A DNA stretch of 64,000 bases from Bacteroidales bacterium (lineage in GTDB: Bacteria > Bacteroidota > Bacteroidia > Bacteroidales > UBA932). Shown one piece after another: positions 42,078 to 52,735 of this stretch. The notes below the pieces were generated by a model. That model made no database searches. It saw only the letters and a program-made list of their open reading frames with translations, and was not told where the DNA came from. The first letter of the stretch is position 1. Each line of letters begins with the position of its first letter. The DNA is taken from the NCBI GenBank assembly GCA_017437755.1, contig JAFRXI010000037.1, positions 1-64,000 of the forward strand, in the 5' to 3' direction. A program made the position numbers and the translations under genes.

Positions 42078-42139
42078 AAGAGAATAATAATGTTTACGTT
42101 TCGGCAGGGACTTGCCCCCGAGCCCCGGCGCCTGACTTA

Positions 42140-42326
42140 ATCATGGCAGGTCTTCTGACTTCTCCGCGGCTCCGGCCTTCTCGGGGTGACGCCTTGCCGG
42201 CGGTCACAGCCCCAATGGCTGGGATTCGGAGCCGTTTTGGATGACACAGCTGCGGGCACAGTCCCGGATTCCCACCGGCTTCCCTTTTAAGCCCCCGGGG
42301 AAGACTCCCCGTGCGGGCACCATGAT
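42140..42326 (-). promoter_or_regulatory. Cobalamin (adenosylcobalamin-type) riboswitch
   Basis: Read on the minus strand the sequence shows the class hallmarks in order. The P1 arms ATCATGG (42320-42326) and CCATGAT (42140-42146) enclose GGTGCCCGCA, then AAAAGGGAAGCCGGTGGGAA and TCCGG, GCCCGCAGCTGT, a GCCATTGG segment corresponding to the usual GCCACTG, and the B12 box GTCAGAAGACCTGCC (42145-42159). The btuG start codon follows after 62 bases, which hold the expression platform. On B12 binding it should lower expression of btuG-btuB-permease. A promoter-like TATCTTTA lies just upstream on the minus strand. Confidence 0.93.
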
Positions 42327-42425
42327 CCGGCGGTAAAGATAACCATATCTTGGAAATATTGTGACGGCGGCGGTTCAAAAAAGTGTGTGGCGACGGGCAT
42401 ATGGTCCGGCCCGGCCGGAAAAGCC

Positions 42426-42470
42426 TTCTTATTTCACGGATATTTTTAATATATTTGCGAATGTGAAATA
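42426..42470 (+). promoter_or_regulatory. Predicted promoter of the STAS-NRPS operon with flanking inverted repeat
   Basis: TATATTTG at 42450-42457 is a perfect -7 box; a TTC at 42426-42428 lies 21 bases upstream where TTG is expected. An 8-base inverted repeat, TATTTCAC (42430-42437) and GTGAAATA (42463-42470), brackets the -7 box and could be an operator. The STAS ATG is at 42479. Confidence 0.55.
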
Positions 42471-42478
42471 TCTGATCT

Positions 42479-42781
42479 ATGGAAACGACTTTCAACAGGG
42501 AAAACGAAGTTCTGAAAATCAAGGTTGACGGCAGACTCGACGCCGCGACCTCGGATGAATTCGTGGCGGAGACCGAAAAAAGGATTGACGACACCCTCAG
42601 GGTCATCGAGGTGGACTGCAGCGCGCTTGAATATATCAGCAGTGCGGGCCTCAGGGCTTTCATGGCCCTCTACGACCGGATCTGCGACAATGACGGCGGC
42701 ATCACGCTCCACAAGGTGGGCGAGCAGGTAGGCGACGTGCTGCGGATGACCGGAATGAACGAAGTATTCACTATCGACTGA
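42479..42781 (+). CDS. STAS-domain protein (anti-sigma factor antagonist, SpoIIAA/RsbV-like)
   Basis: The whole protein (100 residues) is one STAS domain: a first strand EVLKIKVDGRLDAATSDEFV, then IEVDCSALEYISSAGLRAFM. The conserved Ser (Ser55, the second of YISSAGL) is the residue that RsbW-type kinases phosphorylate and SpoIIE/RsbU-type phosphatases restore. In Gram-positive bacteria the unphosphorylated form traps the anti-sigma kinase and frees a sigma factor. Here its stop codon is 4 bases before the NRPS start, so it heads the NRPS operon, and a phosphatase-kinase protein is encoded at the far end of the cluster. No sigma factor is encoded nearby, so its output partner is unknown and could be non-transcriptional. 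Confidence 0.9.
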   Translation: METTFNRENEVLKIKVDGRLDAATSDEFVAETEKRIDDTLRVIEVDCSALEYISSAGLRAFMALYDRICDNDGGITLHKVGEQVGDVLRMTGMNEVFTID

Positions 42782-42785
42782 TAAA

Positions 42786-45700
42786 ATGGAAAAGCAATTC
42801 CCTTTAAGCCGGTCCCAGTATGGTCTCTACGTGGCCTGCCTCGGACATCCCGGCGAGGTTTTCTATAATCTCCCGTTCCTGTATACCCTCGACGGTTCCC
42901 TGGACGCGGACCGTCTCTGCAGGGCCGTGGAAGCGGCCGCAGAAGCCCACCCGGTCCTTTTTACAAGGATATCCCAGGGAGCGGACGGCGAACCGGTCCA
43001 GGCTGTGCGGAAGGAAAGGCTGAGCCTCAAGGCTGAGCTTATCGAGAGCATCGACACGGTGAAAAAAGACCTTATAAAGCCCTTCGACATACTCTCCGAC
43101 AGGCTTTTCCGCATCCGCATCATGAAGGACGCCTCCATCCTCTACCTGTTCCTCGACATCCACCACATCATAAGCGACGGGGTCTCGATGCAGGTGCTGG
43201 TCCGCGATATCGGGAAAGCGTACGACGGGGAGGCCCTCTCGGGAGAGGAACTGTCCCTCGCTGACTTCGCAGGGGAGGAAGCCGCCCTCCGGGCCACTCC
43301 GGCCTACGCGGAGGACAAGGCATGGTTCGCCGCGACCTACGACTGCCAGGACACGTTCACCGAGGTGTGTCCTGACCTCGAGGATACCGAAAAAAAGGAC
43401 GGCCGGCTGGGCCGGATCCTGGAAGTGTCACCGGAGGAGGCAGGCGCCTTCTGCAGGAAGGCCGGCATGTTCAAAAGCACTTTCTACACGGCGGCTTACG
43501 CCTTCCTCCTCGCCCGATACTGCGGCGGGGACGAGGCCCTTTTCAACACCGTTTACGCCGGACGAGACGACAAGCGGCTTGCCGGCAGCGTGGGGATGTT
43601 CGTCAAGACCATCCCCGTCTATGCCAGGTTCGACGCCGGGACTTCCGTCATGGACTTCCTCGGTGCCCTGCAGGAGCAGATGGGGAATGCCCGGAAGCAC
43701 GGGCTGTACAGCTATTCCGAGGCCGTCCATGACCTCGGTCTGCAGTCGGCGACCGATTTCGGCTGGCACGGCGAGATCTTCGGGGACGGATCATTCGCCG
43801 GCAAGCCGATGTCCAGCGAACTGATTGAGGAAACCCGTATCTCCAAGCTCTATTTCAAGGCATACATTCTCGGCGGCCGGATACACGTGGAGGCGGAATA
43901 CAACGCCAACGAATACTCCCAAAGCCTGATTTCGTCGTTCCTGGAAAGTTATGAAGAGGTCGTAAAGGGCTTTCTCTCAAAGGAAAGGCTCTCAGAAATC
44001 GGCATCGCCTCCGAAGGGCAGATCCGCCTCCTCGACTCCTTCAACGCACCGGAAAAGCCCTATGACCTCTCCGAGACCGTGGTCTCCGCCTTCCGCCGCC
44101 AGGCCGGCCTGACCCCGGACAAGACGCTCGTCGTTTACAAGGACAGGCGTTATACCTTCCGTGAGGTGGACCGCATCTCCGAAAACATAGCTGCCCACCT
44201 TCTTTCCAGGGGGCTCGGCCGCGAGGACGTGGTGTCCATCATCATCCCGCGGTGCGAATGGATGATCATCGCCCCCCTTGGCGTACTCAAAGCCGGCTGC
44301 ACCTACCAGCCGCTGGACCCGACCTATCCGGAGGAGAGGCTCAACTTTATGGTGAAGGACGCCGGGGCGCGCTACCTTATCGCAGACAGGGACCTCCGTC
44401 ACCTGGTCACCGGATACGATGGCGAAACCCTGCTAACCGACGAGATAGCCGGACTCGGGGACGGAGACGCGTCAGAGGTGGAAGTGAATGCCCAAGACCG
44501 CATGGTGCTGCTGTACACCTCCGGCTCCACAGGTGTCCCGAAGGGCTGCGAGATCCTTCACCGGAACGTGGTGTCCTTCTGTCGCATGAGTACGGAAATG
44601 CTCCATATGGACTCCTCCAGCCGCCTCTCCGCGTATGCCAGCTTCGGCTTCGACGCCCACCTGATGGACGTCGTATGCCCGGTTATCACCGGAGCCGAAA
44701 TCCACGTCATCCCGGAGGAACTGCGCCTGGACCTGATGGCGCTCAACGATTATTTCAACGAAAACGGCATCACCCACACCTTTATGACCACCCAGGTGGC
44801 CTACCAGTTTGCCACCAGCGAAATCCCTAACACGTCCCTCAAATACTTCCTCACCGGAGGCGAAAAACTCGCCTCGCTGGTCCCGCCGAAGAACTTCACT
44901 CTCTTCAACGCCTACGGCCCCACGGAGACCGTCTGCTACGTCACGGCGTATCCGGTTACGGATTACAGGAAGAACATCCCGATCGGCAAGTCCGTCGCAA
45001 ACTGCCGTTGCTATATCGTGGATGCCTGCGGCCACAGGCAGAGCGTCGGCGCGGCCGGAGAACTCTGGATCAGCGGACCGCAGGTGAGCCGCGGATACCT
45101 GGGCAGGCCGGACAAGACCGCCGAGGTGTTCGTCCGGAATCCTTTCACCGACGATCCCTTCTACGCCGACGCCTACAGGACGGGCGACATCGTCCGCTAT
45201 CTTCCCGACGGGAACATCCAGTTCGTGGGACGCAAGGACGGAATGGTCAAAATCCGCGGTTTCCGTATCGAGCTCAAGGAAGTGGAAGCGGTCATACGGA
45301 AATATCCCGGTATCAGGGACGCCACCGTGCAGGCCTTTGACGCCAAGGGCGGGGGAAAGTTCATAGCGGCCTACATAGTGGCCGATGGGAAGATTGACGT
45401 CGAGGCGCTGAACGCTTTCATCATGGAGGAAAAGCCTCCGTACATGGTCCCTGCCGTCACGATGCAGATAGACGCCATCCCCCTCAACCAGAACCAGAAG
45501 GTCAACCGCAAGGCCCTGCCCGAGCCCGTCCTCCAGAAGGAGGAGGGTGCCGGCCGCAGCGCCCCCCTGAATATCCTTGAACAGGAAATCGTGCGTATGG
45601 CCGGCATCGAGGGCGAGCCTGACATAACCACGCCCCTGGGTTTCCTCGGCCTCACTTCCATCTCGGCCATCAAGCTGGCCGTCCGGCTGAGCAAGAAATA

Positions 45701-48700
45701 CGGCGTCTCCCTCAATGCCAAGGAGATGGTGAAGACCGGGACTGTCCAGTCGGTCGAGAACGAAATCCTTGCATCGATGCTCTCCGGAGAAGCCGCCCCG
45801 GCGGCCGGGCCGGCAAGGCAGGAAGCCGCTGCGAGCCGCACCTTCGCCCTCAGCGCACCCCAGCAGGGCGTCTATGTGGACTGTCTCAAGAACCCGGCCT
45901 CGACCATCTACAACATCCCCGTGAGCATACTTCTGCCGGAAGGGACGGAGCCGGAGAGGGTGGTCTCCGCCGTCAAGGCCATAGTAAGGGCCCATCCCGA
46001 ACTGACGGTCAGTTTCGGAAGCGAAGGCTCCGACATCGTCCAGACGACTCATCCCGGCATCGAAGTGGACGTGCCCGTCCTAAAGGTCTCCAGGGAGGAG
46101 TTCGCCTCCGTCAAGGCCGACTTCGTCAAGCCGTTCAACCTCACCCAGGCACCTCTCTGCCGCTTCTGCGTGGCTGAGGCCGGAGGGGAGGTATACCTCC
46201 TTTCGGATATGCACCACCTGGTATCGGACGGGGCGTCCTACGACATCTTTTTCCGCCAGCTGTGCACCCTCCTGGAAGGCGGAGCCATCGATCCCGAACA
46301 GCTTGATTACGCCGGGTTCGTCTCCCGCGAGAAGGCTACCGACCTCGTCGAGGCGGCCGGTTTCTTCGACAGCCAGCTCGGCGGGGTGGAAGGCGTCACC
46401 GAACTGACCTCCGACCTTACGAACCCGTTCCCCGACGGAAGGACTGAATCGGCGTCGGCTCCCGTGGACTGGCCAGCCGTGGAGGCGTTCTGCCGCGCAA
46501 ACGGCGTCACTGCCGCCCACCTTATGCTGTCGTCGGTAATCTACACCCTTTCGCGGTTCTCGGCAAACCCAGACGTGACTCTGGTCACCATCAGCAACGG
46601 GCGTTCGGACACGGCGATCGCCGACACCATCGGCATGTTCGTCAATACCCTCGCTATCCACGCCAGGGTCACGCCGGAGAAGGTCTCCGACTTCGTCCGC
46701 GGCGTCAGCCGGACCTTCGATGAGACACTCCGCCATGAGAACTACCCCTTTGCAAAGGTCGCAGCCGACTACGACCTCACGGCGGAAATCATGTTCGCCT
46801 ACCAGATAGGCGTTATCGACAGCTATTCCGTAGGCGGGAAGGCGCTCAGGACAGAGAGTCTCGAACTGGACGTGCCGAAGTTCCCCATAGCATTCTATAT
46901 CAACGAAATCGACGGCGTGCCGTCCGTGGTGGTGGAATACGACAACGGGAAATACAGCCGCGCGATGATGGAAAGCCTGGCCGCTTCGGCGGCAACCGCT
47001 GCAAAGCGCTTCGCCGAGTCGCCGGATGCACTTCTGACCGGCATATCCCTGCTGGACGGGAAGCGTACGGAGATACTGGACGGTTTCAACGATACATCTG
47101 TGGAATACGATGCCTCCGAAACGGTCGTTTCACTCTTCCGCCGCCGCGTTGCAGAGAATCCGGACAAGCCGGCGGTTGTATATGAAGACAAAGTCCTGAC
47201 CTACCGTGAAGTGGATGAGATATCGGAGAGAATAGCCGGGAAGATCCTTTCCCTCGGTCTTGTCCGGGAGAGCGTTGTCTCCGTCCTTATCCCGCGTTGC
47301 GAATGGATGAGCGTGGCTTCCCTCGGAGTCCTGAAGGCCGGCTGCGCCTACCAGCCGCTGGACCCCGGGTACCCGAAGGAGAGGCTCGGTTTCATGATTC
47401 AGGACGCTTCGGCGAGGCTACTGATCGCTGATGAAAGCCTTATCGGACTCGTCGACGGATACAAGGGCCCCGTGCTGTTCACAAAGGACATCGCCGCCCT
47501 TCCGGAGACCAGGGTCCCCGCGGAAGCGGCGCCGCGCCCGCAGGATCTTTTCATCCTCCTCTACACGTCCGGTTCCACCGGCACGCCCAAGGGCTGCCAG
47601 TGGGAGCACCGCAACATAGTCGCCTTCTGCGCCTGGTACAGGAGGAAATTCTCGCTGGGTACGGACTGCCGGGTATCGGCCTACGCGAGCTACGGCTTCG
47701 ACGCCTGCCAGATGGACATGTATTCGGCGCTCACCGCGGGGGCGACTTCCTACATAGTACCCGAGTCGTTGAGGCTGGACCTCCCGGCCCTGGCGGCGTT
47801 CTATGAGAGGGAAGGCGTAACCCACGCCTTCATGACGACCCAGATTGCGTACCAGTTTGCGACGACGCAGAAATGCGCCTCGCTCCGGTATCTCCTCACC
47901 GGAGGCGAGAAGCTCGCGAGCCTTGCTCCTCCCGGCAACTATACCCTCGTGAACATCTACGGTCCCACGGAGTGCACCATCTGTATCACTACGTATGACC
48001 TGAAGGACACGCTCCGCGACATCCCTATCGGAAAGCCCACGGACAATACAAAGCTCTATATCGTTGATTCAGAAGGGCATAGGCTTCCTCTCGGGGCGGC
48101 AGGCGAGCTCTGGGCGGAAGGACCGCAGGTCAGCCGCGGATACCTGAACCGTCCGGAGAAGACGGCGGAGACCTATATCCCGAACCCCTTCGGCCCGGGC
48201 ATCATCTACCGTACCGGCGACATAGTCCGCTATCAGGGTGACGGCAACATCCAGTTCGTGGGCCGCCGCGACGGGCAGGTCAAGATCCGCGGTTTCCGCA
48301 TCGAACTCAAGGAGGTGGAGGCTGTGATCCGGGAATACCCTGGTATCAAGGACGCCACCGTGCAGGCCTTCGACTACAGCGGAGGCGGCAAGTACATAGT
48401 GGCTTATATCGTGAGCGGAAGCGAGGTGGACGTCGGCAGGCTCAACGCTTTCATCGCGGAGAGGAAGCCGTCCTATATGGTCCCAGCCGCCACGATGCAG
48501 ATAGACAGCATCCCCCTCAACCAGAACCAGAAGGTCAACCGCAAGGCCCTGCCGGCACCGGTGATAAACGTGGCCCAGCGCCACTATGATGCCCCTTTGG
48601 GCGATACCGAGAAGCTCTTCTGCAAGATATTCCAAGACGTCCTCTCCATGGACAAGGTGGGAGCGACGGACAATTTCTTCGATCTGGGAGGAACCTCGCT

Positions 48701-50072
48701 TATGGTGACAAGGGTCATAATCGAAGCCGACAAGGCCGGACGTCACGTAGCCTACGGCGACATCTTCGATCACCCGACCCCGAGGCTTCTCGCCGCTTCC
48801 CTGGACAAGGACGGGGAGGCTGCCGCGGGAGAGGACAGGACTGTCACCGGATACGATTACAGCGCTATCGACAGGATCCTTGGGGAGAATACCCTCGACG
48901 CATTCCGCAGCGGCGGGATGCTCGGAATGAAGAATGTGCTCCTCACGGGCGCAACGGGGTATCTGGGAATACATATGCTCAATGAACTCATCCACTCCGA
49001 TGCCGCGACCATCTGCTGCCTGGTCCGCGGAAAGGGGCGGGACGAAGCCGAGCGCAGGCTCAAAACCCTTCTCTATTACTACTTCGAGTCCACGTTCCAG
49101 GAACTCTTCGACAGCGGAAGGCTCCGCGTCGCGGTGGGCGATGTGACGTCCGATATCGGGGCGGCCGTCGGACCGCTTTGTGAGGATGCGCCGGTGGATA
49201 CGGTATTCAACTGCGCCGCCGTGGTGAAGCATTTCTCCAAGGGTACGGAGATCGAGGACGTCAATGTGGGAGGGGCTGCCGCATGCGTGGAATTCTGCCT
49301 GGCCCACGGGGCGAGGCTGATCCACGTGTCCACCTACAGCACGGCCGGCCTCAACACGGGAGACCTGGATCCCTCGACCGTCCTCACAGAGACGAAGCTC
49401 TACTACGGCCAGTCGATGGAGAACGCCTATGTCCACTCCAAGTTCCTGTCGGAGAGGCTTGTGCTGGAAGCTGCGGCGACCCGCGGCCTTTCAGCCAAGG
49501 TCGTCCGCCTGGGGAACCTGGCGCCTCGCTCGACCGACGGCGAATTCCAGATCAATTTCCAGACCAACAGCGCAATGGGCCGTGTCCGTGCCTACAAGGT
49601 CATCGGGGGATATCCCTACGGGGCCACGGAGCAGCCGATGGAGTTCTCTCCCATCAACGAGGTGGCCAGGGCAATCGTCCTCCTGAGCAGGACTCCCGAA
49701 AAATGCCGTTTGTTCCATCCCTACAACAACCATTCGGTCTTCTTCGGAGACGTCCTGGATGAGCTCAGGATAATCGGGGACGCCCCCAGGCAGATGGAGG
49801 AGGAAGAGTTCGCCCGGAGGATGGAGGAAGCCGGCGCAGACCCGGATAAGGCTCCGCTTCTCACCGGGGTGCTGGCCTACGCCGACATGGCCCACGGCAA
49901 GAAAGCCACTATGATTATGCCGGACAACAGGTACACCACCCAGGTGCTCTACCGTCTCGGCTTCCGCTGGTCGCCGACCTCGTGGGACTATGTGGACAAG
50001 TTCCTCCTGGCGATTTCCCGGCTCGGCTACTTCAAACCAAGGCGCGGATCCTGCAATGGTCCTCGTAAATGA
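42786..50072 (+). CDS. Two-module nonribosomal peptide synthetase with terminal reductase (C-A-PCP-C-A-PCP-R)
   Basis: The protein has 2428 residues. C1 spans 1-400 with active-site HHIISDG at 126. A1 spans 410-910 with YTSGSTG at 577, NAYGPTE, and GRKDGMVKIRGFRIELKEVE. PCP1 has Ser958 in an atypical GLTSISAIKL. C2 spans 1015-1430 with HHLVSDG at 1143. A2 spans 1430-1915 with YTSGSTG at 1593. PCP2 has Ser1971 in a standard DLGGTSL. The reductase spans about 2045-2400 with the NAD(P)H motif GATGYLG at 2055 and catalytic Tyr2215/Lys2219 (YVHSK). The starter C domain implies an N-acylated first residue, and the reductase implies release as aldehyde or alcohol. Alignment to GrsA by eye gives pocket residues D-A-M-F-L-G-A-C-Y-K (A1) and D-A-M-F-L-G-I-I-C-K (A2), which I read as hydrophobic amino acids, tentatively. 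Cytoplasmic. Confidence 0.95.
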   Translation: MEKQFPLSRSQYGLYVACLGHPGEVFYNLPFLYTLDGSLDADRLCRAVEAAAEAHPVLFTRISQGADGEPVQAVRKERLSLKAELIESIDTVKKDLIKPFDILSDRLFRIRIMKDASILYLFLDIHHIISDGVSMQVLVRDIGKAYDGEALSGEELSLADFAGEEAALRATPAYAEDKAWFAATYDCQDTFTEVCPDLEDTEKKDGRLGRILEVSPEEAGAFCRKAGMFKSTFYTAAYAFLLARYCGGDEALFNTVYAGRDDKRLAGSVGMFVKTIPVYARFDAGTSVMDFLGALQEQMGNARKHGLYSYSEAVHDLGLQSATDFGWHGEIFGDGSFAGKPMSSELIEETRISKLYFKAYILGGRIHVEAEYNANEYSQSLISSFLESYEEVVKGFLSKERLSEIGIASEGQIRLLDSFNAPEKPYDLSETVVSAFRRQAGLTPDKTLVVYKDRRYTFREVDRISENIAAHLLSRGLGREDVVSIIIPRCEWMIIAPLGVLKAGCTYQPLDPTYPEERLNFMVKDAGARYLIADRDLRHLVTGYDGETLLTDEIAGLGDGDASEVEVNAQDRMVLLYTSGSTGVPKGCEILHRNVVSFCRMSTEMLHMDSSSRLSAYASFGFDAHLMDVVCPVITGAEIHVIPEELRLDLMALNDYFNENGITHTFMTTQVAYQFATSEIPNTSLKYFLTGGEKLASLVPPKNFTLFNAYGPTETVCYVTAYPVTDYRKNIPIGKSVANCRCYIVDACGHRQSVGAAGELWISGPQVSRGYLGRPDKTAEVFVRNPFTDDPFYADAYRTGDIVRYLPDGNIQFVGRKDGMVKIRGFRIELKEVEAVIRKYPGIRDATVQAFDAKGGGKFIAAYIVADGKIDVEALNAFIMEEKPPYMVPAVTMQIDAIPLNQNQKVNRKALPEPVLQKEEGAGRSAPLNILEQEIVRMAGIEGEPDITTPLGFLGLTSISAIKLAVRLSKKYGVSLNAKEMVKTGTVQSVENEILASMLSGEAAPAAGPARQEAAASRTFALSAPQQGVYVDCLKNPASTIYNIPVSILLPEGTEPERVVSAVKAIVRAHPELTVSFGSEGSDIVQTTHPGIEVDVPVLKVSREEFASVKADFVKPFNLTQAPLCRFCVAEAGGEVYLLSDMHHLVSDGASYDIFFRQLCTLLEGGAIDPEQLDYAGFVSREKATDLVEAAGFFDSQLGGVEGVTELTSDLTNPFPDGRTESASAPVDWPAVEAFCRANGVTAAHLMLSSVIYTLSRFSANPDVTLVTISNGRSDTAIADTIGMFVNTLAIHARVTPEKVSDFVRGVSRTFDETLRHENYPFAKVAADYDLTAEIMFAYQIGVIDSYSVGGKALRTESLELDVPKFPIAFYINEIDGVPSVVVEYDNGKYSRAMMESLAASAATAAKRFAESPDALLTGISLLDGKRTEILDGFNDTSVEYDASETVVSLFRRRVAENPDKPAVVYEDKVLTYREVDEISERIAGKILSLGLVRESVVSVLIPRCEWMSVASLGVLKAGCAYQPLDPGYPKERLGFMIQDASARLLIADESLIGLVDGYKGPVLFTKDIAALPETRVPAEAAPRPQDLFILLYTSGSTGTPKGCQWEHRNIVAFCAWYRRKFSLGTDCRVSAYASYGFDACQMDMYSALTAGATSYIVPESLRLDLPALAAFYEREGVTHAFMTTQIAYQFATTQKCASLRYLLTGGEKLASLAPPGNYTLVNIYGPTECTICITTYDLKDTLRDIPIGKPTDNTKLYIVDSEGHRLPLGAAGELWAEGPQVSRGYLNRPEKTAETYIPNPFGPGIIYRTGDIVRYQGDGNIQFVGRRDGQVKIRGFRIELKEVEAVIREYPGIKDATVQAFDYSGGGKYIVAYIVSGSEVDVGRLNAFIAERKPSYMVPAATMQIDSIPLNQNQKVNRKALPAPVINVAQRHYDAPLGDTEKLFCKIFQDVLSMDKVGATDNFFDLGGTSLMVTRVIIEADKAGRHVAYGDIFDHPTPRLLAASLDKDGEAAAGEDRTVTGYDYSAIDRILGENTLDAFRSGGMLGMKNVLLTGATGYLGIHMLNELIHSDAATICCLVRGKGRDEAERRLKTLLYYYFESTFQELFDSGRLRVAVGDVTSDIGAAVGPLCEDAPVDTVFNCAAVVKHFSKGTEIEDVNVGGAAACVEFCLAHGARLIHVSTYSTAGLNTGDLDPSTVLTETKLYYGQSMENAYVHSKFLSERLVLEAAATRGLSAKVVRLGNLAPRSTDGEFQINFQTNSAMGRVRAYKVIGGYPYGATEQPMEFSPINEVARAIVLLSRTPEKCRLFHPYNNHSVFFGDVLDELRIIGDAPRQMEEEEFARRMEEAGADPDKAPLLTGVLAYADMAHGKKATMIMPDNRYTTQVLYRLGFRWSPTSWDYVDKFLLAISRLGYFKPRRGSCNGPRK

Positions 50073-50607
50073 CGCCCTGACTGGGATCGACCTCGACGCT
50101 GCGGCAGCGCTTCTTCCGCCCTGGAGGCTGGAGAAGGCGCTCCGGTATGTGAGGGAGTCCGACACCCGGCAGAGCATTGCGGCCTGGCTTCTCCTTCGGG
50201 AAGCCTGTCTCGGCCTGGGGCTTCCGGACGTGCCCGGGGTCGCTTTCGGGGAGCATGGAAAGCCGTTCTTCCCGGACCACCGGTCGCTCCACTTCAATCT
50301 CAGCCACTGCCCGGAGGCCGCCGCCTGCGCAGTCGCAGCTTCACCGGTGGGCATAGACATAGAGGCCGTCATGCCTCCGGACATGGATGTTATGAAGAGG
50401 GTGCTGAGCGGGGAAGAGATCCGCAGGGTACTCGCCTCACCGGACCCGGCGGTAGAGTTCACGCGGCTTTGGACGGTGAAGGAAAGCTACCTCAAACTCA
50501 CCGGCGAGGGCCTCACCGACGACCTGCCGGGACTGCTCGGCCGTGCGGAAGGCGTATGTTTCCGCTCCGTGGTCCGCGACCGCTACGTTTACACCGTGGC
50601 GGAGTGA
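50056..50607 (+). CDS. Sfp-type 4'-phosphopantetheinyl transferase
   Basis: From the ATG at 50056 (overlapping the NRPS stop by 17 bases) the protein is 183 residues. It carries the Sfp/AcpT-type signatures LHFNLSHCPEAAACAVA, VGIDIEAV (Mg-binding Asp and Glu) and FTRLWTVKESYLKLTGEGL, the W-x-x-K-E-x-x-x-K helix that completes the active site. The enzyme transfers phosphopantetheine from CoA to the conserved Ser of carrier domains, here presumably Ser958 and Ser1971 of the adjacent synthetase. A longer frame from 49990 would add 22 residues lying inside the NRPS 3' end without family character, so it is rejected. The gene converges with the sensor-phosphatase gene, overlapping it by 19 bases. 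Confidence 0.92.
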   Translation: MVLVNDALTGIDLDAAAALLPPWRLEKALRYVRESDTRQSIAAWLLLREACLGLGLPDVPGVAFGEHGKPFFPDHRSLHFNLSHCPEAAACAVAASPVGIDIEAVMPPDMDVMKRVLSGEEIRRVLASPDPAVEFTRLWTVKESYLKLTGEGLTDDLPGLLGRAEGVCFRSVVRDRYVYTVAE

Positions 50608-52649
50608 TTCCTGGTCATCGTGAGGATATTGTAACGGCCCGAGTACTCGTAGTTGATGGTATCCATCACCTTGCGGACGAGGAAAATGCCGAGCCCGCCC
50701 TTGCGGCGCTCGTGGCTGTTCCGCTTGAGGTCCGCTTCCGGTGCGGCCGTCGGGTCGAACGGTTTCCCTGTGTCCTTTATGATAAAGACGTATTTCTCCG
50801 GAGTCTTGCGGGCCGTCACCTCGACCGTGCCCCTGGAGCCCTCGGGATATGAGTAGAGTAAGCAGTTGGTCGCGACCTCCTCGACGGCGAGGTTGATATC
50901 CAGCTGTACCTTGCGGTCCATCCCGGCCCCGGCTGCGAATTCCTCGATGAATCCGCCCAGGCGGGCGATTTCCTTCCTGTCGTTCTCCAGGATGATGGTC
51001 TTTTCCAGGAGTACGGTCTCCTGCTGCGGGATGTAGCGGATTGCAAGGATGGTGAGGTCGTCACTCTGGGGGGCGCCCGAAACGAATCTGCCGACAGCCT
51101 CGCAGGTCTTTTCAGTAAGCACCTCGGGGTCGGTACTTCCGCACGCCTCCAGGGCCTCCTTCATCCTGTCCTCGCCAAAGAGGACCTGATTCCTGTCCAT
51201 CGCTTCCGTAACCCCGTCGGTGTATAGGAACAGGGTCCTCCCGGCCCTGATGGTGGTATCCTCCATAGTGTATGAATACTCGCGGAGGAAACCGAGAGGG
51301 GTGTTGGGCTTCACGGGGAGGAAACCGCACCTGCCATCCTCGACGATGGCGGGAGGGTTGTGCCCGGCGTTGCAGTAGCGGAGAGTACCGGTAGGAAGGT
51401 CCAGCACTCCGGCGAAGAAGGTTACGAACATATTCCGACCCCCCAGCTCCCTGATGCGGCTGTGCATGGAGGAGACTATGATACGCGGATTGCTCTCCCG
51501 GTCTCCCAGGGTTCGGAACATTATCCTCGACATTGCCATCAGCAGTGAAGCCGGCACTCCCTTGCCGCTGACATCGCCGATGCAGAAATAAAGCTTTTCG
51601 TCTCGGATGAAAAAGTCGTAGAAATCGCCGCCGATCTCCTTTGCCGGAACCATCTTGGCGAAGATCTTCACGTCCGGCCTGCCCGGAAACCTGGCGGGCA
51701 CCATGCCCATCTGGATGTCGTGGGCGATGTTCATCTCCTTCTCCATCAGGCGGCTCTCCGTCTCGGCCTTCTGCCGGGAGCGCTCGCCGCGGAGTATGCC
51801 GAAAAAGATAAACAGCATCAGGAGGACTATCATGAGGCCGATAAAGGCCGTGACTATGGCGTCACGGATGAAATCGGCATAAATAGTACGGTACGGGACT
51901 GATATTATCATCTCCGCGCCGCGGCTGCCGACAGCTCCGCGGTATATGAAATTGTGCCGTTCGTCCGGCATCCCCAAGGAGCCGTCACTCGAAAGGACCA
52001 CCTTTCCGTCGGCGTTGAGAAGGACGAATTCCGCATCGCTGTAAATACGCCTCTCGCCGATCTTCTGCTTCATCCAGTCGGAGGGAAAGTCGATAAGGAA
52101 CACTCCGGCGAGTTCGTCCTTCCCGTTGATGATCGGGTGGGAAAATGTGCAGACCGATATTCCATAGACCTTTGACATGTATGGGTCCGTCCAGACGTCA
52201 CGGCGTTGGTTCAATGGTATGTCGTACCATTCGGAGCCTTCAAAACCCTCCCTTGTTATGGTGAGATTCTTTATTTCGTCACCGTCCCTGATAAGGCCAA
52301 TGTCCTGACAATTGGGGTGGGTCTCGACATAGGACGGGAAGAAGACCAGGCCGCAGCCGCACATGTCGGGGTTGTCGGAGAGGATTCCCCTGGCGAGATT
52401 CACCACACCGCCCGTCCGGTCGATATCCACAAGATGCCTGACGGGGATGGACAGGTCGAACACGATCTGCCGGATGTCGTTCATCGCTTCGTTCAGGGAG
52501 GAGTTGACATACCCGAGCTCCAACTTTGCCAGGGTCTTGGAGTCGCGGCTCAGCCGCCGGAGGTCACGCGCCGAGTGGACGCAGGCTACAACAAACACCA
52601 GCAGCAGGGCCAGGACTATGCCCAGGACATTATATCCCTTTTTCTTCAT
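50589..52649 (-). CDS. Membrane sensor with SpoIIE/PP2C phosphatase and RsbW-like kinase domains
   Basis: The protein has 686 residues. A first membrane helix lies at 7-24. A periplasmic Cache-like sensor domain at 30-262 includes a WYDIPLNQRRDVWTDPYMSKV segment typical of dCache domains. A second helix spans about 267-290, followed by a short coiled linker. The SpoIIE-type PP2C phosphatase runs from about 320 to 530 with metal-binding Asp342 in GGDFYDFF, CIGDVSGKGVPASLL and the late APQSDDLTIL. A C-terminal GHKL ATPase of RsbW/SpoIIAB type spans 545-680: AVEEVATNCLLYSYP, IKDTGKPFDP and GGLGIFLVRKVMDTI. One protein thus carries both the phosphatase and the kinase activities of a partner switch. 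The STAS protein at the start of the NRPS operon is the obvious candidate substrate. Confidence 0.93.
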   Translation of the reverse strand: MKKKGYNVLGIVLALLLVFVVACVHSARDLRRLSRDSKTLAKLELGYVNSSLNEAMNDIRQIVFDLSIPVRHLVDIDRTGGVVNLARGILSDNPDMCGCGLVFFPSYVETHPNCQDIGLIRDGDEIKNLTITREGFEGSEWYDIPLNQRRDVWTDPYMSKVYGISVCTFSHPIINGKDELAGVFLIDFPSDWMKQKIGERRIYSDAEFVLLNADGKVVLSSDGSLGMPDERHNFIYRGAVGSRGAEMIISVPYRTIYADFIRDAIVTAFIGLMIVLLMLFIFFGILRGERSRQKAETESRLMEKEMNIAHDIQMGMVPARFPGRPDVKIFAKMVPAKEIGGDFYDFFIRDEKLYFCIGDVSGKGVPASLLMAMSRIMFRTLGDRESNPRIIVSSMHSRIRELGGRNMFVTFFAGVLDLPTGTLRYCNAGHNPPAIVEDGRCGFLPVKPNTPLGFLREYSYTMEDTTIRAGRTLFLYTDGVTEAMDRNQVLFGEDRMKEALEACGSTDPEVLTEKTCEAVGRFVSGAPQSDDLTILAIRYIPQQETVLLEKTIILENDRKEIARLGGFIEEFAAGAGMDRKVQLDINLAVEEVATNCLLYSYPEGSRGTVEVTARKTPEKYVFIIKDTGKPFDPTAAPEADLKRNSHERRKGGLGIFLVRKVMDTINYEYSGRYNILTMTRNHSATV

Positions 52650-52735
52650 CGACTAATTATAAACGATTTGCGAATATACTAAATCTTTTCGTTTTTATCC
52701 CGAACGCGGTCGCCTGAAACAAAAGAGTATGATTG

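Follow-up and report, generated by a model that had tools for sequence, protein, structure and literature searches.

To our knowledge, little is known about what turns peptide aldehyde gene clusters on. In the SiaABCD system of Pseudomonas aeruginosa, SiaA is reportedly a phosphatase and SiaC the phosphorylated switch protein, and indigoidine synthase is a nonribosomal peptide synthetase (NRPS). SypE of Vibrio fischeri carries opposing kinase and phosphatase domains on one protein, which set the phosphorylation of SypA, a STAS protein whose gene belongs to a biosynthetic locus (PMC4517449, PMC12826045), and SypA promotes biofilm by a post-transcriptional mechanism given as unknown (PMC4517449). 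SiaC binds and activates the diguanylate cyclase SiaD (PMC8457831), and in the TciK/TciR system of Vogesella indigofera the pigment indigoidine is made under the control of a protein that carries an RsbW-like domain (PMC12826045). Such systems show, or at least suggest, that proteins of the RsbW/STAS type do not need a sigma factor in order to act. Here we analyze a window of 64,000 nucleotides from a Bacteroidales bacterium of lineage UBA932 (contig JAFRXI010000037.1 of GCA_017437755.1, positions 1 to 64,000, forward strand), in which genes for a STAS protein and for a membrane-bound sensor-phosphatase-kinase (SPK) bracket an NRPS gene that ends in a reductase domain. The linkage of this switch to reductase-terminated NRPSs is beyond chance, yet not universal. 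We propose, with a probability of about one half, that the cassette is a self-contained unit for the biosynthesis of a small peptide aldehyde with a dedicated partner switch that acts most likely post-transcriptionally.

Organization of the cassette

An earlier sequence-only reading of this DNA had placed four genes here, and the list of open reading frames (ORFs), together with Pfam and NCBIfam, confirms that layout:

42479..42781, plus strand: STAS protein of 100 amino acids with predicted phospho-acceptor Ser55 (Pfam STAS 2e-15; TIGR00377 60.6 bits, cut-off 53.45)
42786..50072, plus strand: NRPS of 2428 amino acids with condensation (C), adenylation (A), thiolation (T) and reductase (R) domains in the order C-A-T-C-A-T-R (Pfam: two Condensation, two AMP-binding, two PP-binding, one NAD_binding_4 reductase stretch)
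49990..50607 (longest frame), plus strand: Sfp-type phosphopantetheinyl transferase (Pfam ACPS 1.5e-13)
50589..52649, minus strand: SPK of 686 amino acids, with a membrane sensor (PDC/Cache), a SpoIIE-type phosphatase (residues 350-539) and an RsbW-like ATPase (residues 556-679) (Pfam SpoIIE 9.9e-48, HATPase_c_2 7.4e-25, MCP-like_PDC_1 8.8e-12)

As that reading had claimed, 4 bases separate the STAS stop from the NRPS start, the Sfp-type frame overlaps the NRPS end, and the convergent gene encodes both a SpoIIE phosphatase and an RsbW-like ATPase. Judged from L139, a related cassette in a metagenome-assembled genome (MAG) from sheep rumen, the true Sfp start probably lies further in, at about 50047-50056. 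Two hydrophobic segments of the SPK, at about residues 3-30 and 258-291, lie on either side of its Cache/PDC domain.

The genome is 2.88 Mb in size and its assembly 84.9% complete. Its only SpoIIE match and its only STAS match (PF01740 was searched, STAS_2 was not) fall in this 10 kb; HATPase_c_2 gave one strong match and one weak match just above the cut-off in a 1314-amino-acid frame. With one PF01740 STAS in the assembled genome, the sensor's single STAS candidate lies on the far side of the NRPS, at a distance of 8 kb. The sequence-only reading had named a sensor that acts on another STAS protein encoded elsewhere as evidence against it; the 85%-complete assembly gave no second PF01740 match. 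Sigma70_r3 matches a single protein in a 315-amino-acid frame, presumably the housekeeping factor; a cognate SigB/SigF-type (group 3) sigma factor was not found in this assembly, in a count that did not include extracytoplasmic function (ECF) factors. This lone match supports the earlier remark that a SigB-type factor is absent.

To the left of the cassette lies a divergent group of DUF5074, TonB receptor and FecCD genes, preceded by a cobalamin riboswitch (42128-42339, minus strand), and to the right lies a tRNA-Ser gene.

Linkage of the switch to related NRPS genes

Gene calls in the comparison loci come from a simple script, and domain assignments from profiles made with the window's proteins; MAG contigs are short. 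A search of named genomes with the reductase domain gave at least 598 matching stretches, and the best 80 were kept as loci. All are Bacteroidales-type records, mostly MAGs, and many bear ruminant sample names. SpoIIE, STAS and ATPase occur together in 60 of these best 80 loci. Fifty-eight loci are informative, their NRPS being complete and flanked by 2.5 kb or more on each side (the other 22 of the 80 are cut or short-flanked), and both SpoIIE and STAS are present in 56 of the 58. The sequence-only reading had pointed to homologous NRPS loci as the place where their absence would tell against it, and this count speaks in its favor. Because the 80 loci were picked for likeness to the window NRPS, 56/58 is no rate for all Bacteroidales. 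Most of the 20 loci lacking SpoIIE are cut by contig ends; among them, L154 and L155 keep STAS/ATPase or a partial ATPase at the contig end.

The 60 loci whose reductase-bearing NRPS frame measures 2300-2600 amino acids have STAS in 56 cases and SpoIIE in 55, ahead of an outer-membrane barrel (42), a MATE exporter (39) and Sfp (27), which makes the switch the most constant companion of the NRPS. ORF clustering of the best 80 loci gave six recurrent families (NRPS 80, STAS 61, SPK 59, barrel 47, MATE 45, Sfp 29) and no other; the next largest occurs in 7 loci. The commonest gene order is SPK, STAS, barrel (Alginate_exp-like), NRPS, MATE, Sfp, and the median gaps measure 13-33 bases. This recurrence in homologous loci supports the view that STAS, SPK and NRPS are inherited as one unit. 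Chance neighborhood was rejected on the single SpoIIE and STAS of the genome, the 56 of 58 loci and a DNA similarity to L139 that is limited to the cassette.

Wider samples set the bounds of this linkage. Among 199 genomes of the family, SpoIIE occurs in 100, condensation domains in 31 and STAS in 145; many of these STAS domains lie in long frames of about 560-750 amino acids that resemble SulP transporters, a likeness left unchecked. Of the 31 genomes that have a condensation domain, 16 contributed the 20 regions fetched, and the rest were judged from coordinates among the matches listed. SpoIIE adjoins the NRPS in 9 of the 20 regions (L019-L027) and was not seen in NRPS loci L029-L033 and L038, some of which are on short contigs. 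A sample across the order comprised 324 genomes, 28 with condensation domains and 241 with SpoIIE; 34 loci were fetched, G391 not among them. The SpoIIE-STAS pair stands beside a reductase-terminated NRPS in L222, L223 and L224, which belong to three other families. Of the loci with a reductase-terminated NRPS, seven are without the pair: five on cut or short contigs, and L232 and L236. Apart from these seven, two loci hold a condensation domain only. A link of STAS/SpoIIE to NRPSs in general was rejected, with the pair in 0 of 22 order loci without a profile-detected reductase (several are cut).

Conserved residues and probable pairing of the switch proteins

Ser55 is presumably the phospho-acceptor, by comparison with SpoIIAA/RsbV reference sequences, in agreement with the sequence-only reading. 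In the NRPS-locus alignments the phospho-serine of STAS is kept in 72/72 rows, the N, G1-Asp and G2-Gly positions of the ATPase in 70/70, and the SpoIIE acidic positions (Asp of GGD, GD, TDG and DD) in 71-72 of 73. The residues expected of the partner-switching class are thus all present: SpoIIE/PP2C acidic residues, GHKL ATPase N/G1/G2 motifs and the STAS serine.

Across the 65 loci having all four parts, STAS and ATPase pairwise distances correlate with r 0.82, and the partial correlation given the reductase domain is 0.72; that of STAS with the reductase given the ATPase is 0.13. In the 30 of 80 loci that have all ten parts of a larger comparison, STAS-ATPase stands at 0.65 and STAS-SpoIIE at 0.68, and partial correlations with STAS given the ATPase are 0.28 for the reductase, 0.21 for C2, 0.09 for MATE and 0.33 for the barrel, the last being the only signal, and a weak one. 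These values support the view that STAS and the same-locus ATPase are a cognate pair, and they single out no STAS target.

On the sensor side, CahR-type dCache receptors for autoinducer-2 have a conserved Arg/Trp/Tyr/Asp pocket (PMC9540692). A crude R.WY pattern drawn from that motif matches 1 of 57 sensor proteins, and the window sensor does not match.

Shared cassette, possibly separate histories

The reductase domain of L139 is 91% identical to that of the window. DNA similarity between the two covers window positions 42473-50600 and 50620-52651, that is, the four-gene cassette (L139:3869-14198), and a sensitive search of the flanks found nothing beyond a 38-base piece elsewhere and a single weak protein match that is not syntenic. 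Ratios of nonsynonymous to synonymous substitution (dN/dS) are 0.21 (STAS, from 100 codons), 0.09 (NRPS), 0.11 (Sfp) and 0.14 (SPK), values expected of genes under purifying selection. The L139 STAS gene starts 3 bases after a metallophosphoesterase gene, and its upstream DNA differs from the window's. A tRNA-Leu gene lies about 1.1 kb left of the cassette in L139, and in the window the tRNA gene, tRNA-Ser, is on the right.

The regulators may have a more mixed past. In the SpoIIE tree (112 rows; stretches under 170 amino acids and duplicates omitted), NRPS-linked sensors stand in several places, with 7 changes, 3 of them forced by starred branches, and in the SPK tree (103 rows; ORFs with both SpoIIE and ATPase) NRPS linkage changes 4 times, 2 forced. 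A single origin of the NRPS-linked sensors is not supported by either tree; the window's own position is weakly supported in both. The window STAS is about 20-37% identical to all those compared except L139, and the window SPK is likewise distant from other NRPS-linked pairs; the window reductase is 61-67% identical to the nearest rows of the same set. This suggests, with weak tree support for the window itself, that one regulator pair has at times replaced another without a break in the association with the NRPS. Alternatively, the regulators may have evolved faster.

Predicted product of the NRPS

The enzyme has C/A/T modules, two in number, with a NAD-binding reductase last, as in two-module reductase-terminated NRPSs. 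The leading condensation domain and terminal reductase of the C-A-T-C-A-T-R layout suggest a synthetase for an N-acyl dipeptide aldehyde. Specificity codes of the A domains pointed to no clear amino acid. For the reductase region (48603-50069) the best solved relative is 6vtj (4.6e-86), far ahead of the AusA reductase 4f6l; we take 6vtj to be a rumen methanogen protein, which, if so, would suggest gene exchange in the rumen. AusA (NF047350) is the top NCBIfam match of the NRPS, but the score of 1031.7 is below the curated cut-off of 2500 and an identity with the aureusimine synthetase was rejected. Relative to AusA, the window NRPS has an additional N-terminal condensation domain. AusA/aureusimine and the gut NRPSs for N-acyl dipeptide aldehydes, that of ruminopeptin among them, are likewise two-module and reductase-terminated, and the cited passages mention no phospho-switch for them (PMC8518294, PMC12327764). 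Gut bacterial peptide aldehydes are described as protease inhibitors acting on host cells (PMC8518294). In one of the related loci (L141:4133-18846), a tandem pair of complete C-A-C-A-R NRPS genes stands behind a single SPK-STAS pair.

Promoter-type boxes and fusion proteins

One promoter-like element precedes the window's STAS gene:

42450..42457, plus strand: TATATTTG, a match to the Bacteroidetes housekeeping -7 box TAnnTTTG, 21 bases 5' of the STAS start

We take TAnnTTTG to be the housekeeping -7 consensus. In the 64 kb, both strands, 13 matches occur where 15.2 are expected by chance, so the single TATATTTG match proves nothing. The comparison across loci is more telling. Among 42 uncut SPK genes with 150 bp upstream, 29 have the box within those 150 bp, against a mean of 3.5 and a maximum of 10 in shuffles preserving base content only; upstream of the NRPS it occurs in 5 of 66 (shuffle mean 2.6). 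For 39 of the 42 counted SPK genes the NRPS lies downstream on the same strand. With one Sigma70_r3 protein and housekeeping-type boxes, SigB/SigF-type control is not supported. No local transcription factor recurs as a candidate output in the ORF clustering of the best 80 loci, where no further family exceeds 7 loci. The lack of upstream DNA common to the window and L139 also leans away from control of expression.

A positive hint of a protein-level output comes from MATE exporters with a C-terminal RsbW-like ATPase, found in four NRPS loci (L022:15322-17115, L023:13736-15514, L211:3702-5459 and L223:16134-17912); in L022 the fusion is the sole ATPase found in the fetched 20 kb. The sequence-only reading had left open whether the switch governs expression or activity of the NRPS, and the -7 boxes, the unshared upstream DNA and these fusions lean against expression.

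SpoIIE genes away from NRPSs were sampled in 100 fetched regions, a subset of the listed places (L138 was chosen for STAS, and L069 has no labelled domain). YegS/DAGK lipid kinase-ATPase fusions occur there near SpoIIE sensors (L058:4307-5710 and L133:7095-8399 by Pfam; similar ones in L115, L129 and L137 by clustering and profile), and in L087:1473-2654 a fusion of STAS to an APH-type phosphotransferase adjoins an SPK. These fusions off the NRPS point in the same direction as the MATE fusions.

Other genes recur in these surroundings. RelA/SpoT-like, HD and APH genes lie near NRPS-free SPK-STAS pairs in 28, 25 and 25 loci (for example L054:6933-8592 and L056:11570-12400; Pfam on one representative of each cluster), and an NMT1-type solute-binding family lies at most 4 genes from SpoIIE/STAS in 37 loci (for example L044:7477-8439; one representative on Pfam). 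ABC ATPases with a weak RsbW-like tail by profile were seen in L065:11599-12867, L077, L083:4880-5962 and L106; Pfam does not report the tail in L065 and L083.

Discussion

We propose that a ligand outside the cytoplasm would bind the membrane sensor and shift the balance between the phosphatase and kinase of the SPK. That balance would set the phosphorylation of STAS Ser55, and STAS in one of its two states would gate the synthesis machinery, or the exporter where one is present, instead of releasing a sigma factor. The phosphorylation, the ligand, the active STAS state and the target are the parts that we infer; the proposal draws on the parts present, their conservation as a unit, the catalytic residues, the STAS-ATPase co-variation, the promoter boxes and the exporter-ATPase fusions of some loci. 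A broader and more tentative idea, which we think somewhat less probable than the proposal for the cassette, is that gut and rumen Bacteroidales have uncoupled partner switching from sigma factors and use it for direct post-translational control of a megaenzyme and its exporter, with STAS docking on the NRPS or on MATE-fused RsbW-like domains. It may extend to lipid kinase and APH kinase effectors as a general layer in the order.

Several observations weigh against the proposal. Informative loci L144 and L194 have neither SpoIIE nor STAS; L028 has STAS without SpoIIE in its fetched region; order loci L232 and L236 are true exceptions, with a reductase-terminated NRPS and no pair. In genus g22, SpoIIE and STAS were not seen in the four fetched NRPS loci L034-L037, and in four further genomes the listed SpoIIE lies on a different contig from the NRPS (by coordinates, for SpoIIE only). 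SpoIIE-STAS pairs are also common in family regions without any NRPS. The earlier interpretation is supported in part: STAS, sensor and NRPS as an inherited unit, and the absence of a SigB-type factor. The linkage is not universal. The target is a further difficulty. Co-variation with STAS gave no clear signal for any NRPS domain or for MATE (30 loci). MATE and barrel are missing from the window and L139 cassettes, which would leave the NRPS, or the product of some gene elsewhere, as the target there. In NRPS loci L020, L021, L024 and L025 SpoIIE comes without an ATPase in the fetched region (the L020, L021 and L025 proteins were run on Pfam), and any kinase there would need another source. 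A housekeeping promoter, moreover, does not exclude an additional regulator as yet unknown.

Because of the missing MATE and barrel and the four loci without an ATPase, we hold a post-transcriptional output at even odds and keep some weight on transcription, an unlikely but serious contender in which STAS would free or hold a factor from another part of the genome (an ECF factor or another sigma factor, an anti-sigma factor or a DNA-binding protein) and the switch would in this way govern transcription of the cassette. Such an output is classical for STAS proteins of the SpoIIAA/RsbV type, and these rank among the closest solved relatives (1sbo, 1th8, 6m36); the regulators head the same operon in many loci, and ECF factors fall outside our count. 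The lone Sigma70_r3 protein, the boxes in 29 of 42 SPK upstream regions, the unshared upstream DNA and the lack of a local transcription factor speak the other way, and a sigma-factor output looks unlikely. We give lower odds still to export as the main target, where STAS would gate the MATE exporter or the barrel and product build-up would then limit the NRPS. The four MATE-HATPase fusions, the presence of MATE in 39/60 and barrel in 42/60 loci, the weak STAS-barrel correlation and the distant kinship with MlaB, the STAS subunit of an ABC transporter, all fit this idea, but the window and L139 keep STAS and SPK with neither MATE nor barrel, and the STAS-MATE partial correlation is 0.09.

Two further explanations concern the partnership itself. 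The sensor and STAS could serve a general cell function and merely accompany the NRPS on a segment that is mobile or conserved, as the pairs beside other genes elsewhere and the common cassette with differing flanks in L139 would allow. We regard this as improbable given that the genome's sole PF01740 STAS and SpoIIE lie here, that the pair is present in 56 of 58 informative loci, and that NRPS-linked sensors, though at more than one place in the trees, are still kept with the NRPS. Least probable of all is a sensor acting on a different STAS while the NRPS-adjacent one has another role: a second STAS could be missing from the 84.9%-complete assembly, and L224 and L026 do have two STAS genes, but STAS co-varies with the same-locus ATPase (0.82) and the genome yields no second PF01740 match.

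A dedicated sensor and switch travels with a family of predicted peptide-aldehyde clusters in gut and rumen Bacteroidales, and the sensor domain offers a handle for finding the inducing signal and activating silent clusters. Should the output prove post-translational, the cassette would offer a test bed for STAS control of non-sigma targets, a question still open for SypA (PMC4517449). In open-licence literature, by titles and the starts of abstracts, we recognized no description of an NRPS-linked switch or of a MATE-HATPase fusion, which is weak evidence of absence.

Among known systems, the Bacillus switches RsbU/RsbV/RsbW and SpoIIE/SpoIIAA/SpoIIAB likewise have a SpoIIE-type phosphatase, an RsbW-like ATPase and a STAS protein with an acceptor serine, and are solved relatives by sequence. 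Here, in contrast, phosphatase and kinase share a single membrane sensor, whose gene and that of STAS belong to an NRPS cassette; a SigB/SigF-type factor was not found in the assembly. Rv1364c of Mycobacterium tuberculosis (3ke6) likewise has phosphatase and kinase on one chain, but it reportedly lies outside a biosynthetic cluster and is linked to a sigma factor. MlaB of MlaFEDB, a STAS relative found by sequence against solved structures, is said to act on a transporter without a phosphatase or kinase partner. TciK/TciR is a two-component system with a REC-RsbW protein, in a genome without an RsbV homologue (PMC12826045). SypE/SypA is similar in plan: by domain content and position, the window also has kinase and phosphatase on one protein and the STAS partner in a biosynthetic locus. 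SypE, however, has a receiver domain, and the cited passages describe no membrane sensor for it (PMC4517449, PMC12826045), whereas the window SPK has a Cache sensor and, by Pfam, no receiver; the SypE/SypA product is a polysaccharide. In SiaABCD the output is likewise not a sigma factor, although enzyme and domain layout differ, and the presumed target in the Bacteroidales cassette would be the NRPS or an exporter.

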